Source of the DNA: a virus
Direction: 5' to 3' (one strand)
Length of the DNA: 52,004 nt
Virus record (IMG/VR): IMGVR_UViG_3300024259_000047
Coordinates: 1-52,004 of that record
The notes beneath the pieces are model-generated. The model searched no databases and had not been told where the DNA came from. It saw only the letters and a list, made by a program, of their open reading frames with translations. The position numbers were made by a program, and so were the translations under genes. This document shows positions 18,967-29,390 of this stretch, one piece after another (the stretch's first letter is position 1; every line of letters begins with the position of its first letter).

Positions 18967-19455
18967 ATGGCGAATGACCTTGATATCGTGTGGAGCACCG
19001 AACAACGCAAGATTTCCGACCTTGTACCATATCCGAATAACCCGCGACGGCTGACGGAAAAACAAAAGACCGACCTACAGAAGTCTATCGAGCGGTTCAA
19101 CCTTGCCGAGATCCCCGCGATTAATGTCGATGGGACGATTCTCGCAGGGCACCAGCGGTTGAAGATCCTGGCGTCCCTCGGGCGCGGCGAAGAGACGATT
19201 GATGTTCGGGTGCCGAGCCGCGTTCTGACCCCTACCGAGATGCAGGAATACAACATCCGATCCAACCAGAACACCGGCGAGTGGGATTTCGATCTCCTGG
19301 CCGATGAATTCGGCCACGATGATTTGATCGAGTGGGGCTTTGAGGAAGGGGAGATTCTACGGCCTGATTTCGACCCGATAGAGGAAGAACCCCCGCGTCT
19401 CGACCAGAAGAAACCGACAGTTTGCCCGGAATGTGGCCATGAGTGGACAGAATAA
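18967..19455 (+). CDS. ParB/Srx-fold nuclease-like protein
   Basis: A 162-residue protein with the ParB N-terminal fold: DLVPYPNNPRRLTEKQ, then LAEIPAINVDGTILAGHQRLKIL (the G-H-Q-R motif) and MQEYNIRSNQNTGEWDFDLL. In phages this fold usually sits next to a methyltransferase or packaging genes and may act in DNA modification or packaging site choice. It ends with a CPECGHEW half-ribbon. The next gene (Mom-like) overlaps its end, so the two probably work together. Confidence 0.85.
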   Translation: MANDLDIVWSTEQRKISDLVPYPNNPRRLTEKQKTDLQKSIERFNLAEIPAINVDGTILAGHQRLKILASLGRGEETIDVRVPSRVLTPTEMQEYNIRSNQNTGEWDFDLLADEFGHDDLIEWGFEEGEILRPDFDPIEEEPPRLDQKKPTVCPECGHEWTE

Positions 19456-20158
19456 ACCGAAGTTACATCTTGCTTGGTGCTCGCACAAAGCAGCGAAATA
19501 TGCCGTTGAACACTGGCACTATTCGAAGAGGATGCCATCAACAGCAGGGCGGGCTGTATATATTGGAGTGTGGGAAGACGGAAAGTATGTAGGGTCAATT
19601 GTTTTTAGCCTTGGTGCAAATTTGAATTTAGGGAAAAGGTATGGGTTGAGGCAGTTTGAAAGGTGTGAGTTGGTGAGGGTAGCTCTAAGGGAGCACAAGA
19701 ATACAGTAACGAAGATCGTTTCTGTTGCACTGAAGATTTTAAAGAAGCACTCTCCAGGACTAAAGGCTGTTTTTTCTTATGCTGACATGGGGCAGGGACA
19801 CGTCGGGGTTATATATCAAGCAGGGAATTGGAGCTATATAGGGATAAGTCCTGGCACCTATGAATATATCAGGAATGGTGAAATCTTGCACTCCAGAACG
19901 GCATCAGATAGATATGGCTCATTAAAGGGAATGAGAGAGCGGGGGTTCACAAAACAAAAGAAAGCGAATAAGCACCTTTATGTTAGTGTCTTTGATAGGT
20001 CTATATATAGCAGATTTACAAAGCATGTTTTACCATACCCAAAGCGCGGCGAAAGTGACACGAGTGACACGCCGGGGCACCACCCCGGAAAGGGCGGTTC
20101 AACTCCGACCTCGCCGCTCCATTCTAAAGAGCTGACCAATGCCAAAAAAGAATCCTAA
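19439..20158 (+). CDS. mom: Mom-like DNA modification protein
   Basis: ATG 19439 overlaps the ParB-like gene; GTG 19433 in the same frame is possible. The protein has the GNAT-like pattern of Mu Mom: HYSKRMPS, RAVYIGVWEDGKYVGSIVF, RQFERCELVRVALREHKN, KAVFSYADMGQGHVGVIYQAGNW. Mom adds a methylcarbamoyl group to adenine and protects phage DNA from restriction. The gene is markedly AT-rich: by count 25 of 60 bases are G or C at 19561-19620, against 42 of 60 at 20161-20220. This suggests recent transfer. The last 40 residues are probably not conserved. Confidence 0.75.
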   Translation: MSGQNKPKLHLAWCSHKAAKYAVEHWHYSKRMPSTAGRAVYIGVWEDGKYVGSIVFSLGANLNLGKRYGLRQFERCELVRVALREHKNTVTKIVSVALKILKKHSPGLKAVFSYADMGQGHVGVIYQAGNWSYIGISPGTYEYIRNGEILHSRTASDRYGSLKGMRERGFTKQKKANKHLYVSVFDRSIYSRFTKHVLPYPKRGESDTSDTPGHHPGKGGSTPTSPLHSKELTNAKKES

Positions 20159-21540: not shown

Positions 21541-21950
21541 AAGACGGCGCAACGGGAGAGCGGAAAGTCCCGGCAGAGCAGGAACCGGATAAGCTGTTGC
21601 AAGTCCTGTGCTCGGTGATAGCCGACTTCGAGAAGCACCACGAAATCAAGATTCCAGAGCGGAAGGAGCTCGCCAACGGCGTCAGAAAGACGTGCCTGTC
21701 GATGATCGAACGGGCGCTTGTTGTCTACCATCTCGGGATACTCAAGATAGCCGAGGGCATCGTGAACCCCGCCGACGACCCCCGGATGAAGAAGGCGTTC
21801 AAGACGGACGAGGAAAAGCGGCTGGTTCAGGCGGCGGTGAATACATTCAGGGCGCGGATAATCTACGCGATGAACAAGGTCGAGGATCCAACAGCGGGAG
21901 AGGCCGAGGACGATGATTCACGGAGCGGCGGAGAAAAAGAAAGCCCGTGA
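21537..21950 (+). CDS. Hypothetical protein upstream of terL (137 aa)
   Basis: Helical with a central part reading IADFEKHHEIKIPERKELANGVRKTCLSMIERAL and an acidic C-terminus (GEAEDDDSRSGGEKESP). It overlaps terL by 38 nt, so it is tightly coupled to packaging, but no conserved motif was seen. It may be a second packaging accessory protein. Confidence 0.55.
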   Translation: MKDGATGERKVPAEQEPDKLLQVLCSVIADFEKHHEIKIPERKELANGVRKTCLSMIERALVVYHLGILKIAEGIVNPADDPRMKKAFKTDEEKRLVQAAVNTFRARIIYAMNKVEDPTAGEAEDDDSRSGGEKESP

Positions 21951-23310
21951 AGAGGCGATTGCGCGGATAAAGACGCGGCGTCTCACGGCAATGCGGTATC
22001 ACGCCACACAGCACGCGCTATGGACATCGAGCGTCCGCTTCCCCGTCATCCCCGCCGGGCGTCGTAGCGGCAAGACAGAGCTTGGAAAACGGAAGCTGGT
22101 GCAGCGGGCTATCAACCACCACCGAGGCGACCACGGGCTTTACGTCGCGTCCGCTCCCACGTTCCGGCAGGCGAAGCGGATCTATTGGAAAGACCTGAAG
22201 GCGCTCGTTCCGAATCAGCTCAAGCGCGGCAAGCCGTCGGAAACGGAGCTGGTTATCCCTATCAGAACGCCCGTCGGGCTCGATGCCGAAATCATGATCG
22301 CCGGGATGGACGCCCCCGACAGGATCGAGGGGTTTCCGATTGACGGCATTCTCCTCGACGAGTACGGAAACATGAAACGTACCGTCTGGACAGAGAATGT
22401 CCGCCCCGGCCTCTCGACTCCTGGCCGCCCCGGCTGGGCGTGGCTGTTTGGTGTCCCGGAAGGGCGCAACCACTACTTCCACACCTATGAGAAAGCTTGT
22501 CTGCCGACTACGAACGGCTGGGCGGGCTTCCACTGGCCGTCCGCCGATATCCTCGACCCGGAAGAGGTTGCGGCAGCGAAAGCCGACCTTGACCCGGTTA
22601 CGTTCGATCAGGAGTACAACGCGAACTTCGTTAACTTCCAAGGCAGGGCTTACTACGAATTCACCTCTGCCGTCCACGCGGTCGAAAAGCTCGAATACCA
22701 GCCGCAACTGCCCCTGATTTTCGCCTTCGACTTCAACGAGACGCCGGGCGTGGCGGCTATCCTCCAGGAGCAGAAGTACGAAGGGGAGAACCCGCTTGTC
22801 GGGGACAAGGATACGCGCGTTTTCACGGCGTGCATCGATGAAGTCTGGATCAAGAATAGCAAGACGCCGAAAGTCTGCCGGGAGCTGATCAACAAGTACA
22901 GCCACCACGAAGGGATTATCTACATCTACGGCGATTCGACCGGTGGCTCGGGCGGCTCTGCGAAAGTGCAAGGCTCCGACTGGGATCTGGTTAAGCACAC
23001 ATTGACCCCGCAATTCGGGAACAAGCTCCGGTTTTACTATCCGTCGGCGAACCCCCACGAGCGTTCCCGCGTCAACGCCATGAACTCCCGGATTCAATCG
23101 TCGGACGGTCGGATTCGCTTCATGGTTGACCCTCAGAAGTGCATGAAGATCATCGTTGACTTCGAAGGCGTCTCGGTGATAGACGACGGTTCCGGACGGC
23201 TTGACAAGAAATCCGACAAGATGTTGACCCACGTTTCCGATGCCGTCGGGTACTACGTTTTCGAGAAGTTTGTCCGCCGCTCCGGAAACTTTGTCCGCCG
23301 CTTGATCTAA
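21913..23310 (+). CDS. terL: Terminase large subunit
   Basis: A 465-residue packaging motor. The ATPase domain has Walker A AGRRSGKT (residues 48-55) and Walker B GILLDEY (about 145-151). The C-terminal nuclease domain has acidic positions in FAFDFNETPG and YIYGDSTGGSGGS, plus DAVGYYVFEK, as in RNase H-like nucleases. It translocates DNA into the prohead through the portal (24787) and cuts it. It overlaps the preceding gene by 38 nt. Confidence 0.9.
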   Translation: MIHGAAEKKKAREEAIARIKTRRLTAMRYHATQHALWTSSVRFPVIPAGRRSGKTELGKRKLVQRAINHHRGDHGLYVASAPTFRQAKRIYWKDLKALVPNQLKRGKPSETELVIPIRTPVGLDAEIMIAGMDAPDRIEGFPIDGILLDEYGNMKRTVWTENVRPGLSTPGRPGWAWLFGVPEGRNHYFHTYEKACLPTTNGWAGFHWPSADILDPEEVAAAKADLDPVTFDQEYNANFVNFQGRAYYEFTSAVHAVEKLEYQPQLPLIFAFDFNETPGVAAILQEQKYEGENPLVGDKDTRVFTACIDEVWIKNSKTPKVCRELINKYSHHEGIIYIYGDSTGGSGGSAKVQGSDWDLVKHTLTPQFGNKLRFYYPSANPHERSRVNAMNSRIQSSDGRIRFMVDPQKCMKIIVDFEGVSVIDDGSGRLDKKSDKMLTHVSDAVGYYVFEKFVRRSGNFVRRLI

Positions 23311-24786: not shown

Positions 24787-26265
24787 ATGGCGACGGAAAA
24801 ACAGGTGATCGAGGGCGCGCCCGCTGTTGGCGTGGATAGCCGCGAAGTCGGTATCCCGTGCGCGGCGTATTTGGAGATGGAAGAGGACTGGCAACTGATC
24901 CATGACCTTCGTGGCGGGACGCAGGCGATGCGGGACAACGCAACCGACTGGTTGCCGAAGGAGCCAAACGAAGGAACCGACGCATGGCAGGCACGGATTA
25001 AGCGGTCGTACCTCCTCAACGCCTACGATGACGCAATCGATCAGCTCACGGCGAAACCGTTTTCCAAGCCCGTCACCGAGAAGAGCGAGTCGGGAGCGGT
25101 GCTCCCTGAGCAGCTCCGGCGCATGGCGGATAACCCGTGCAAGGACGGGCGAGATTTGACGCAGATTTCGAAGGCGGTATTCGACGACGGTGTCGACCAC
25201 GGGCTCGTCCACATCTACGTCGATTATCCGGCTCTGAAGATTCGTCCGAACGTCCAGGAAGAGCGGGACGGCCAGATCCAGCCATACCTTGTCCACGTCT
25301 CCGCCCCGAATATGCTCGGGTGGTTGTATCGGAAAGATGCGAGCGGCAACAAGGTACTGACTCAGATCCGGATCCGGGAATATGCCACGGTAGCATCCGG
25401 AGACTACGGATCTGTCGAGGTCGAAACTATCCGCGTCGTCAACGAGCGATGGATTGAGCTATGGGAGAAGATCGAGGATAAGCTCTGGAAGCTGAAAGAA
25501 GTCCTGCCGAAGACGAATCCGACCATCCCCCTCGCCACGCTCTACTTCAACCGGACTGGGTTTATGACGGCGAAACCGGCGCTGATCAACCTCGCATGGC
25601 GCAACCTTGAACACTTCCAGAGCGCTTCCGATCAACGGAACATCCTTCGCTTTGCCCGTTGCGGGTTTATCCATGCCGCCGGGTTCAGTCCCGAAGAGCT
25701 TGACGAGATCCGGTCTATCGGCGCGGCTATCATGGTGGCCGGTGGCGAGAACAGCAAAATCGGCTACGTGGAACACAAGGGCACTGCAATCGCGGCGGGG
25801 AAGGAAGACCTCGAACGGATTGAACTCCAGATGGAGATGTTGAAGCTTCAGCCGACGACGCAGAGATCCGGCAATGTGACGGCCACGGAGCGGGTTATCG
25901 ACGCGGCGCAATCCATGACTAATATTCAGGCGTGGATTCGGGCGACGGAGAACGCTCAACTCCAGTGGTTCCAGCTCGCGACGACCTGGAATTCCGAGAC
26001 GTTCCCGGAGGACTACAAATTCGATATCTTCTCTGAATTCGGGCTCACGGCGAAGGCGATGGAGGATCTCGAATTCCTCCTCAAGGCTTGTGTTGAAGAT
26101 AAGATTCCCGTGGAGGTCCTGCTTTCCGAGGTCAAGCGCCGAAGTGTTATCGATGAGGTCTGGACGGTCGAGGGTATGATGGAACTCCTCGACGCGGCTG
26201 GCCCGACTCTCCCCGAAAAGGACGATGACGACGACCTGAAAGACGAGGGGGATGAAGGGGAATAG
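24787..26265 (+). CDS. Portal protein (DUF4055-like)
   Basis: A 492-residue protein starting after GGAGAGG. The N-terminus (WQLIHDLRGGTQAMRDN, LPKEPNEGTDAWQARIKRSYLLNAYDDAIDQL) has the DUF4055 portal pattern, followed by beta-strands and the long crown helix. It ends in an acidic tail (DDDDDLKDEG). The dodecameric portal forms the DNA channel at one capsid vertex. It binds terL (21913), the MuF-like protein (26270) and the connector. Confidence 0.85.
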   Translation: MATEKQVIEGAPAVGVDSREVGIPCAAYLEMEEDWQLIHDLRGGTQAMRDNATDWLPKEPNEGTDAWQARIKRSYLLNAYDDAIDQLTAKPFSKPVTEKSESGAVLPEQLRRMADNPCKDGRDLTQISKAVFDDGVDHGLVHIYVDYPALKIRPNVQEERDGQIQPYLVHVSAPNMLGWLYRKDASGNKVLTQIRIREYATVASGDYGSVEVETIRVVNERWIELWEKIEDKLWKLKEVLPKTNPTIPLATLYFNRTGFMTAKPALINLAWRNLEHFQSASDQRNILRFARCGFIHAAGFSPEELDEIRSIGAAIMVAGGENSKIGYVEHKGTAIAAGKEDLERIELQMEMLKLQPTTQRSGNVTATERVIDAAQSMTNIQAWIRATENAQLQWFQLATTWNSETFPEDYKFDIFSEFGLTAKAMEDLEFLLKACVEDKIPVEVLLSEVKRRSVIDEVWTVEGMMELLDAAGPTLPEKDDDDDLKDEGDEGE

Positions 26266-26269
26266 CTGA

Positions 26270-27388
26270 ATGCCCCGCAAAGACCCACGATTAGAGCGCA
26301 TTGCGCGGACCGTGAATCAGAAGCTGTTAGAGCGGTCCATCCGGCACGCTGTGCTGTTTGAACAGCTCAAGGACGCCGAGGTCCTCCGGACGCTCGATCT
26401 CCTCAACAAGCGCCTGTTCCCTCGCATAATGGCCGAGGTCGAGGAACGTCTTGAGGCCGGGATGCGCGGTGTCTGGACCACGGCGCGACAGAGACGGCTC
26501 ACCGCCGCAATCAACAAGATGATCGAGGTCGGGTACGCGCGGGACTTTGAGAAGCCGCTGTCCAATAGGCTCAAGAAACTCGCCGTCGTCGAGGCTGAGG
26601 CGACTCAAGCGCTCCTCGCAGGCGCAATGCCGCCGACTATCGGTATTGAGATGTTGGTGCCGTCTGCGAAGTTTCTGAATGACGTGGTGGCGTCGAACCC
26701 CTTCCACGGGCGAATACTCAAGCCGTATTTCACCGGCCTCAAGGCGAATACAAAAAAGGGGATGGACGAGGCCGTCAAGCTCGGCATGGCGCAGGGCGAG
26801 ACGATGCCTCAGGTCACAAACAGGGTCCGGAAACACTTCCGGCGGGTCCGGCATGAGGTCGAGGCATGGACACGGACGGCAATTTCCGACGTGTCGAACA
26901 AGTCGACGATTGCCACGTTCCGGGCGAATAAGGACGTTGTCAGTATGTACGTCTTCATTGCGACTCTTGATGCTCGCACGACGGACATCTGCGCCTCGCT
27001 CGATGGGAAGAAGTTCCCTTTAAGCTCAGGAACGTTCCTCCCGGCGCTTCATTTTGGCTGAAGGTCACGTATTTCACCGGTGGTGAAATCATGGAAAGAA
27101 CTCGGTATTCCGCTGAAGGATATCCCCCCGACGACGAGGGCCAGTGTCCTCGGTGAAGTCCCCGGCAAGATGAACTATCGAAAGTGGATGTATTCCCTAC
27201 GCGGGAGCAAAGATCCCCGTTCGCTCTACCTGTTGCAGCAGCGGCTTGGCAAAAAGAAGGGGCTGTTGTTCCACCAAGGGAAATTCGCTCTCCCGGAATC
27301 GATCCGTTTTGCACCGAAATCGAGCGAGATATTAGGGCTTGGAAAGTACCGGAAGATGAATAACTTGCCCACGGTTAAGAGGTTGTGA
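26270..27388 (+). CDS. MuF/SPP1 gp7-like head protein with in-frame TGA (possible selenocysteine)
   Basis: The frame opens at ATG 26270 and a TGA occurs at 27059-27061 (codon 264). Reading through it gives a continuous 372-residue protein. Residues 1-200 are helical. Then come LDARTTDIC (Cys241), H-F-G (261-263) and the TGA, followed by RSRISPVVKSWKELG. The family's H-x-x-C-R-S/C motif demands cysteine exactly at the TGA. The downstream part (RASVLGEVP, MNYRKWMYSL) is the normal family C-terminus. The protein aids portal and genome-entry assembly inside the prohead. Overlapping ATGA stops elsewhere show the code is standard. A nonsense mutation remains possible. Confidence 0.75.
27071..27089 (+). 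promoter_or_regulatory. Candidate bacterial SECIS hairpin
   Basis: ATTTCACC (27071-27078), loop GGT (27079-27081), GGTGAAAT (27082-27089): a perfect 8-bp stem. It starts 9 nt after the TGA at 27059, and the loop G lies 18 nt past the TGA. Bacterial SECIS elements sit directly 3' of UGA, with a loop holding a G or GU read by SelB. Position, stem and loop all fit. The bulged U of the Escherichia coli element is absent. Confidence 0.65.
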
Positions 27389-27604: not shown

Positions 27605-28375
27605 ATGGTGAAATACAAGGCCGCAATTGACAAATCGGGTTACGATGCGCTTGAGAGCGACGACGTGAAAGCCTTCTACGCTCAGGATGAGCACGGAATC
27701 TATGTATTCCAGCTCGAACCGGGCACGGTCGGTGACGCCGTTTATGGTGTCGAGGACGTTGGAACTCTCAAAACGACAATCGCAACGCTCCGCGTCTCGG
27801 AGAAGAAGCTGAAGCAATTCGGCGATCTCTCTCCTCAGGATGCGAAGGCGAACGCGAAGAAGGTTGACGACTACGCCAAAGTCGACCCCAGTAAAGAAGC
27901 CGACGCGAAGGCTCAGGCACGAATCGACCAGCTCACGACAAAGCATGAAGGGGAGCTGGCCGAAAAGGATGCAGTCATCTCGAAGAAAGACAAGGCTCTG
28001 ACAAGGGCCGTTGTCACGGATGCCGCAACCCGCGCGCTTTCAGAGCAGAAAGCATCGGTTCCGCTTTTACTGCCAACCGTGGAAGCGATGCTCTTTACTG
28101 AGGAAGATGATAACGGCGATGTCCATGCCAGAGTCCGTGACCCGAAGAATCCTGGCATTGCACGAATCACAAAGAAGCAGGGATCACAAGATCCGATGAC
28201 CGTTGCCGAGTTCGTTGAAACCCTCCGTGAGTCGAAAGACTTCAGCCCTGCCTTTCCCGGCAAGGAAGCGAGCGGGGGCGGAAGCGAGGACGCCAACAAT
28301 TCAGGGGGCAAGAGTGAAACAGAATTCGCTAATCCGACTGCCGCTCTTGAACACGCATTTAACGCCGGGAAATAG
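27605..28375 (+). CDS. Scaffold protein
   Basis: A 256-residue, highly charged protein with a central coiled-coil (DAKAQARIDQLTTKHEGELAEKD) and a hydrophilic, Gly/Ser-rich tail (ASGGGSEDANNSGGKSETEF). It has the typical size, composition and place (between the MuF-like and capsid genes) of a siphovirus scaffold that templates prohead assembly. It has no protease motif of its own. The leader RNA motif (27464-27594) could tune its dosage relative to capsid protein. Confidence 0.75.
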   Translation: MVKYKAAIDKSGYDALESDDVKAFYAQDEHGIYVFQLEPGTVGDAVYGVEDVGTLKTTIATLRVSEKKLKQFGDLSPQDAKANAKKVDDYAKVDPSKEADAKAQARIDQLTTKHEGELAEKDAVISKKDKALTRAVVTDAATRALSEQKASVPLLLPTVEAMLFTEEDDNGDVHARVRDPKNPGIARITKKQGSQDPMTVAEFVETLRESKDFSPAFPGKEASGGGSEDANNSGGKSETEFANPTAALEHAFNAGK

Positions 28376-28454: not shown

Positions 28455-29390
28455 ATGGCTTATCTCACAATTCTCGAAGCCGCGAAACTCGGGCAGGGTA
28501 CGCTCATGGACAGGGCTATCGTGCAGATTTTCGCGCAGAGCGCACCGATCCTTCAGTATCTTCCCTTCCGAAACATCCCCGGCAACGCCATCAAGTACAA
28601 TAGGGAGCAGACCCTCCCCGGTATCGCGTGGCGCGGCATCAATGAAGGCTATACCGCCTCCACGGGAATCATCAATCCGATTGTCGAATCGCTGTTCATC
28701 TGCGGTGGTGACATCCAGGTTGATAGGTTCATCGAGAAGACGGAGGGCCCCGGTGCCCGCGCCGTTCACGTCGCGATGAAGGCCAAGGCCATTTCGCAGG
28801 ACTTTCAGCGGGCGTTCATCAAGGGCGATTCCCTCGACGATCCGAAAGAGATCGACGGCCTCCAGACTCGACTCGTCGGGGATCAGCTCATCGCCGCCGG
28901 TACGACCGATGGCGGGGACGCTCTCTCCCTCGCAAAGCTCGACGAGCTGATCGACGCGGTGGACGGCGGGCAGTACTTGATCATGGGTAAGGCGATGGCT
29001 CGCCGGATGACCACGGCGGGAAGAACCTCGACCGTCGCCGGAAATATCGAGTTCTCGAAAGATGAATTCGGCGCGACAATGACGAAGTACAACGGTCTGC
29101 CTATCATCGCTCTCGCTGATAGCGCCGGGCTCGACAACGTGCTCCCTTTCGAGGAGGCGACGAACCACACTACGGCAACTGCCACGGGATCCTCGATCTA
29201 CTGTGTCGCGTTCGGTCCTGACAAGCTCTCAGGGCTCCAGAACGGCGCTCTCGAAGCGCGTGACCTCGGAGAGATGGATTCGGCTCCGCTCCTGCTCACT
29301 CGTATCGAGTGGGATATCGGGATGATGATTCGTCACGGTCGTTCCGCCGCTCGCCTCTGGAGTGTCAAGAATGCTGCCGTGACCGCGTAA
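28455..29390 (+). CDS. Major capsid protein
   Basis: A 311-residue protein directly after the scaffold. Early helix YLTILEAAKLGQGTLMDRAIV, then a beta-rich body with ending strands (APLLLTRIEWDIGMMI). Size, order and composition fit a HK97-fold capsid. No separate prohead protease is seen. About 415 copies are usual for a T=7 head. A 79-bp gap with AAAGGTATT precedes it. Confidence 0.8.
   Translation: MAYLTILEAAKLGQGTLMDRAIVQIFAQSAPILQYLPFRNIPGNAIKYNREQTLPGIAWRGINEGYTASTGIINPIVESLFICGGDIQVDRFIEKTEGPGARAVHVAMKAKAISQDFQRAFIKGDSLDDPKEIDGLQTRLVGDQLIAAGTTDGGDALSLAKLDELIDAVDGGQYLIMGKAMARRMTTAGRTSTVAGNIEFSKDEFGATMTKYNGLPIIALADSAGLDNVLPFEEATNHTTATATGSSIYCVAFGPDKLSGLQNGALEARDLGEMDSAPLLLTRIEWDIGMMIRHGRSAARLWSVKNAAVTA

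Follow-up and report, generated by a model that had tools for sequence, protein, structure and literature searches.

Bacterial selenoproteins that depend on a SECIS element, such as E. coli fdhF, offer one close precedent for the locus reported here. The published bSECIS model (PMC13188914, Fig. 2) describes a hairpin lying 16-37 nt from the UGA, with a stem of 4-16 bp, a loop of 3-9 nt carrying a G in its first two positions, and an MFE of -7.5 or lower. Phages have been connected to selenocysteine (Sec) decoding through Basilisk-like Bacillus phages, which possess a tRNA-SeC gene and for which no phage selenoprotein has been reported (PMC6145125). This tRNA gene was the nearest precedent in the openly licensed literature, where we found no phage-encoded selenoprotein. 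The 2026 selenoprotein inventory never mentions phage, virus or capsid (PMC13188914), and phages are likewise not mentioned in the Sargasso Sea and GOS surveys (PMC1088965, PMC2398784).

The locus shares with fdhF and its like a UGA at a cysteine-homologous site and a small-loop hairpin with a G[G/U] motif at 17-21 nt. Unlike those systems, it encodes a structural protein of a phage and apparently no enzyme of redox metabolism, and no phage-encoded Sec machinery was found. The Basilisk-like phages have a tRNA gene, whereas here we describe a candidate selenoprotein gene without one. With the marine surveys our case has in common the pairing of TGA and Cys forms and the SECIS logic. For a new selenoprotein family to be accepted in the Sargasso Sea survey, at least two different TGA sequences were required (PMC1088965); we have four, one in the window and one each in the contigs L095, L170 and L178.

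The window, i.e. the whole stretch of DNA analysed, is a 52,004-bp linear IMG/VR virus record (coordinates are on its plus strand unless stated otherwise). Genes for the terminase large subunit (21913-23310, the query used to find relatives), the portal protein (24787-26265), a MuF-family minor head protein (26270-27388), the head scaffolding protein (27605-28375) and the major capsid protein (28455-29390) follow one another in the order known for MuF head proteins. The MuF gene, whose ATG start is preceded by AAGGGGA, comprises 372 codons if its internal TGA is read as Sec. Its product contains a Phage_Mu_F domain (PF04233; E 5e-11, 43.8 bits against a gathering cut-off of 29.6) and, with the TGA taken as Cys, matches phrog_241 with an E value of 1e-64. 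It resembles MuF/gp7 proteins such as SPP1 gp7 and Mu gpF in this domain match, in its position between portal and scaffold/capsid, and in its D-x-R-T...C...H-x-x-C-R motif. It differs from them at the HxxCR codon, which is TGA here and TGC or TGT in the retrieved homologues, save for the three other TGA cases and one Asp. Elsewhere in the window, a type II hammerhead ribozyme lies on the minus strand at 2764-2828 (Rfam RF02276, 48.1 bits, E 7e-7, above the gathering score), and a Mom-family protein is encoded at 19433-20158 (PF25680, E 5e-41), so that this phage may modify DNA in the manner of Mu.

The MuF gene has a single in-frame TGA, at 27059-27061, with 263 codons upstream and 108 downstream of it; the true stop is the TGA at 27386-27388. 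The preliminary description had placed the internal TGA exactly where H-x-x-C-R needs its cysteine, and both the coordinates and the alignment bear this out. The column is an invariant Cys in a seven-protein alignment, and TGC or TGT occupies the site in all 86 homologues of our first set. Of a second set of 128 loci, 126 aligned over the site or close to it; 125 could be read there, giving 123 Cys, one Asp and one TGA (L095), and three stopped short of it. As in bacterial selenoproteins, then, the UGA aligns with the cysteine of its homologues, and the window gene encodes the expected residue only if the codon is read as Sec or Cys. This cysteine is a conserved MuF feature that lies outside the Pfam definition of PF04233. 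The family's other invariant cysteine, Cys241 (TGC, 26990-26992), stands 23 residues before the proposed Sec264 and is its candidate partner; L095, L170 and L178 have CxxC instead.

The reading frame beyond the TGA (27062-27385) retains a conserved C-terminal part, as the preliminary description had claimed for these 108 further codons. Residues of the KSWxELG and TRAS/GQVP regions, W306 and G327 are still conserved, and the C-terminal fragment alone matches phrog_241 positions 274-339 (E 2e-5). In the predicted MuF structure (mean pLDDT 89), strand 267-272 falls after the TGA, so that a product terminated there would, according to this model, be without it. A PDB search with the predicted fold gave no match at E of 0.001 or below, and sequence matches were chance ones only. 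We also observed that phrog_14819 (91 aa, function unassigned) matches only the post-TGA part of MuF (window 27080-27388); this family may consist of stand-alone C-terminal fragments produced by gene callers that stop at such TGAs.

Nine nucleotides after the TGA begins a perfect 8-bp hairpin, AUUUCACC-GGU-GGUGAAAU, at 27071-27089 (loop at 27079-27081, extendable to 27068-27093). The loop begins after 17 nt, and its first G is nucleotide 18 from the UGA, in agreement with the preliminary description. With its 3-nt GGU loop, 8-bp stem, 17-nt distance and simple hairpin energy of -7.8 kcal/mol (RNAfold z -1.4), the structure conforms to the bSECIS model. Taken alone it is only mildly above chance and not striking. 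Equally good hairpins follow 86 of the 1642 TGA triplets in the window (5%) and are present in 7 of 82 Cys homologues (9%), and 3.4% of synonymous recodings match it, or 2.3% when a G[G/U] loop is demanded. The window sequence by itself would leave the choice between a candidate and an error.

Three more uncultured viral contigs carry TGA at the same MuF codon. The corresponding proteins are 22-35% identical (L095 and L170 share 35%, the window protein and L095 22-23%), and in each of the three the downstream frame is intact and a hairpin with a G[G/U] loop follows 17-21 nt after the UGA. L095 came from a survey of 80 viral contigs picked by terminase similarity and blind to stops; its site reads LLHPG-TGA-RCNRDVVTRSWEELG, and its hairpin, GGGACGUG-GUUA-CACGUUCC, has its loop 18 nt after the UGA. 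Two TGA-specific pattern scans then returned L095 again together with L170 (PLHHR-TGA-RCVLLPVTATWRELG, within a 600-codon frame) and L178 (PFHPN-TGA-RCVYAPVVKTWADLG); all three matches were MuF genes, with no false match. L170 and L178 were selected for a TGA at this codon, so that where their stops lie cannot count as independent support. The L170 gene (8724-10520, minus strand, on an 84-kb contig) has an extension of about 200 residues past the MuF C-terminus, without a Pfam match, that is reminiscent of the effector extensions described in MuF proteins.

Few MuF genes carry the TGA form. A pattern that demanded Lys at +9 found none in IMG/VR; its one match in GTDB genomes, L088, was due to chance and was rejected, the pattern being out of frame in a Sel1-repeat gene. 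Among 396 Nitrospirota genomes there were two MuF-like matches, one of them with a TGA (L190); this too was rejected, as the codon at the Cys is TGC and the stop lies after it. The nearest sampled relatives of the window MuF all have Cys, as do the closest relatives from cultured phages and spring water in every case where the motif could be located, and a short-peptide search for close relatives of the window MuF, portal and terminase returned none. The tree is compatible with one Cys-to-Sec change or with several, and a single clade is not rejected; the Cys relatives of L095, L170 and L178 were under-sampled.

The four loops (GGU in the window, GUUA in L095, and CGUGAC and GUAAA in the other two) start 17, 18, 17 and 21 nt after the UGA, and the same script places the loop of E. 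coli fdhF at 18 nt; the stem sequences of the four hairpins are unrelated. When the bSECIS criteria are applied with the simple-hairpin energy, three of the four TGA genes qualify, compared with 6 of 97 Cys homologues (Fisher p=0.0019). Restricting the loop start to 16-22 nt and the energy to -6 kcal/mol or lower, thresholds chosen after the data had been seen, separates four of four from 1 of 97 (p=1e-6). Synonymous-recoding tests give a combined p=0.003 over the four genes and 0.013 without the window. The individual hairpins are modest: that of the window has -7.8 kcal/mol and that of L178 -6.8 (reaching -9.9 only with a lower stem; synonymous p=0.15), and the L170 hairpin at 17 nt scores -7.6 next to a rival, more stable one at 34 nt, which full-range scoring selects instead. 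A related TGA gene lacking a hairpin, which would have spoken against the preliminary description, did not turn up, L095, L170 and L178 all having a SECIS-like hairpin.

Considering these results, the best explanation, and in our view a likely one on the sequence evidence, is that UGA264 would be decoded as Sec by SelA, SelB and tRNA-Sec of the host. The proposal that UGA is recoded in this head protein thus gains support as the best explanation from four TGA genes, with Sec itself inferred. The SECIS hairpin just 3' of the UGA would recruit the host SelB-GTP-Sec-tRNASec, allowing the ribosome to read UGA as Sec and the MuF gene to yield a full-length minor head protein in which Sec replaces the invariant HxxCR cysteine; the prediction is that this Sec-containing MuF enters the head together with the portal. 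The phages would borrow the Sec machinery of their hosts. The SelB wing domain had no match in any of the four virus records, and the stretches scanned for tRNA genes (window, L095 and the L170 contig) contained none, so that under Sec decoding the host must supply this machinery. Insertion dependent on SelB, the machinery that the hosts are presumed to have and what the selenol does are the parts that we infer. The hosts suggested by phage relatives (Pseudomonas, Caulobacter and roseobacters) are too mixed to point to a host.

The alternative that survives best, although we regard it as unlikely, is that TGC or TGT became TGA through a recent nonsense mutation or through a mistake in sequencing or assembly, with the hairpin being coincidental. 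Each of the four TGA genes is a singleton, represented by one metagenomic sequence, and for none of them did we find a near relative that keeps the TGA with synonymous changes, which is the usual proof. Hairpins as good as these follow some 5-9% of comparable sites, and broken MuF genes may occur, given that the L166 homologue has an in-frame TAG. That TAG lies upstream of the conserved core, and L166 is perhaps a broken or short-start gene. Against an error or mutation stand the four cases at one codon, each with a fitting hairpin, and the enrichment of such hairpins (3/4 versus 6/97, p=0.002). Moreover, only one of the 122 single-base changes that create a stop in the window MuF gene yields TGA at the Cys264 codon, and L095 was found without selecting for stops.

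A selenium-free read-through, in which near-cognate tRNAs, aided by the stem-loop, insert Trp or Cys and both short and long MuF products are made, appears improbable. It would account for a stem-loop 3' of the UGA in all four genes, and both products could indeed be made. However, 123 of the 125 homologues read at this position encode Cys, a requirement that Trp would fail, and G[G/U] is present in the loops at the distance expected for SelB. Still less credit is due to the idea that the TGA really terminates translation and that a downstream restart yields a second protein from the MuF gene. The GTG at 27080 could open a 102-codon ORF, and phrog_14819, with its 91 aa, covers the C-terminal part only; yet this GTG has no Shine-Dalgarno sequence ahead of it and itself lies inside the hairpin, the upstream product would be left without the invariant CR and strand 267-272, and candidate restarts vary in codon and position across the TGA genes.

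A variant code in phage or host with TGA as an amino acid would explain one in-frame TGA inside a conserved gene, but code reassignment is excluded because TGA is an ordinary stop in all four contigs, and no other window gene was found to be TGA-interrupted at a conserved site. Among long ORFs, 30 of 60 in the window, 45 of 87 in G001 and 13 of 39 in G399 terminate with TGA; the code is standard, as had been proposed, since about half of the long window ORFs end in this way. A convincing second Sec gene was likewise not found in the window.

Returning to Sec decoding of UGA264, the contribution of the residue to MuF may be of two kinds. A redox pair between Cys241 and Sec264 is only plausible, and the CxxC/HxxCR variants agree just as well with a metal site. 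If Sec is indeed inserted, the HxxCR cysteine, a poorly understood feature of the widespread MuF family, would benefit from selenol chemistry, which would hint at a redox or metal-binding role for this domain of unknown function. Standard gene callers end such genes at their TGA, so viral datasets may hide more of them.

Judged by the openly licensed literature, such a protein would be without precedent both as a phage selenoprotein and as a selenoprotein among virion structural proteins. We lean towards the view that this set of phages encodes a virion-borne selenoprotein through a Cys-to-Sec change in MuF, which would make completing an infection dependent on the host's SelB and selenium status. 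The phages would depend on a host selenocysteine machinery that is patchily spread over bacteria, and this dependence leads to a testable host-range rule, namely that only Sec-decoding hosts would serve. Altogether, these findings suggest that there are probably phages with a virion protein containing selenium, which would need a host that uses selenium.
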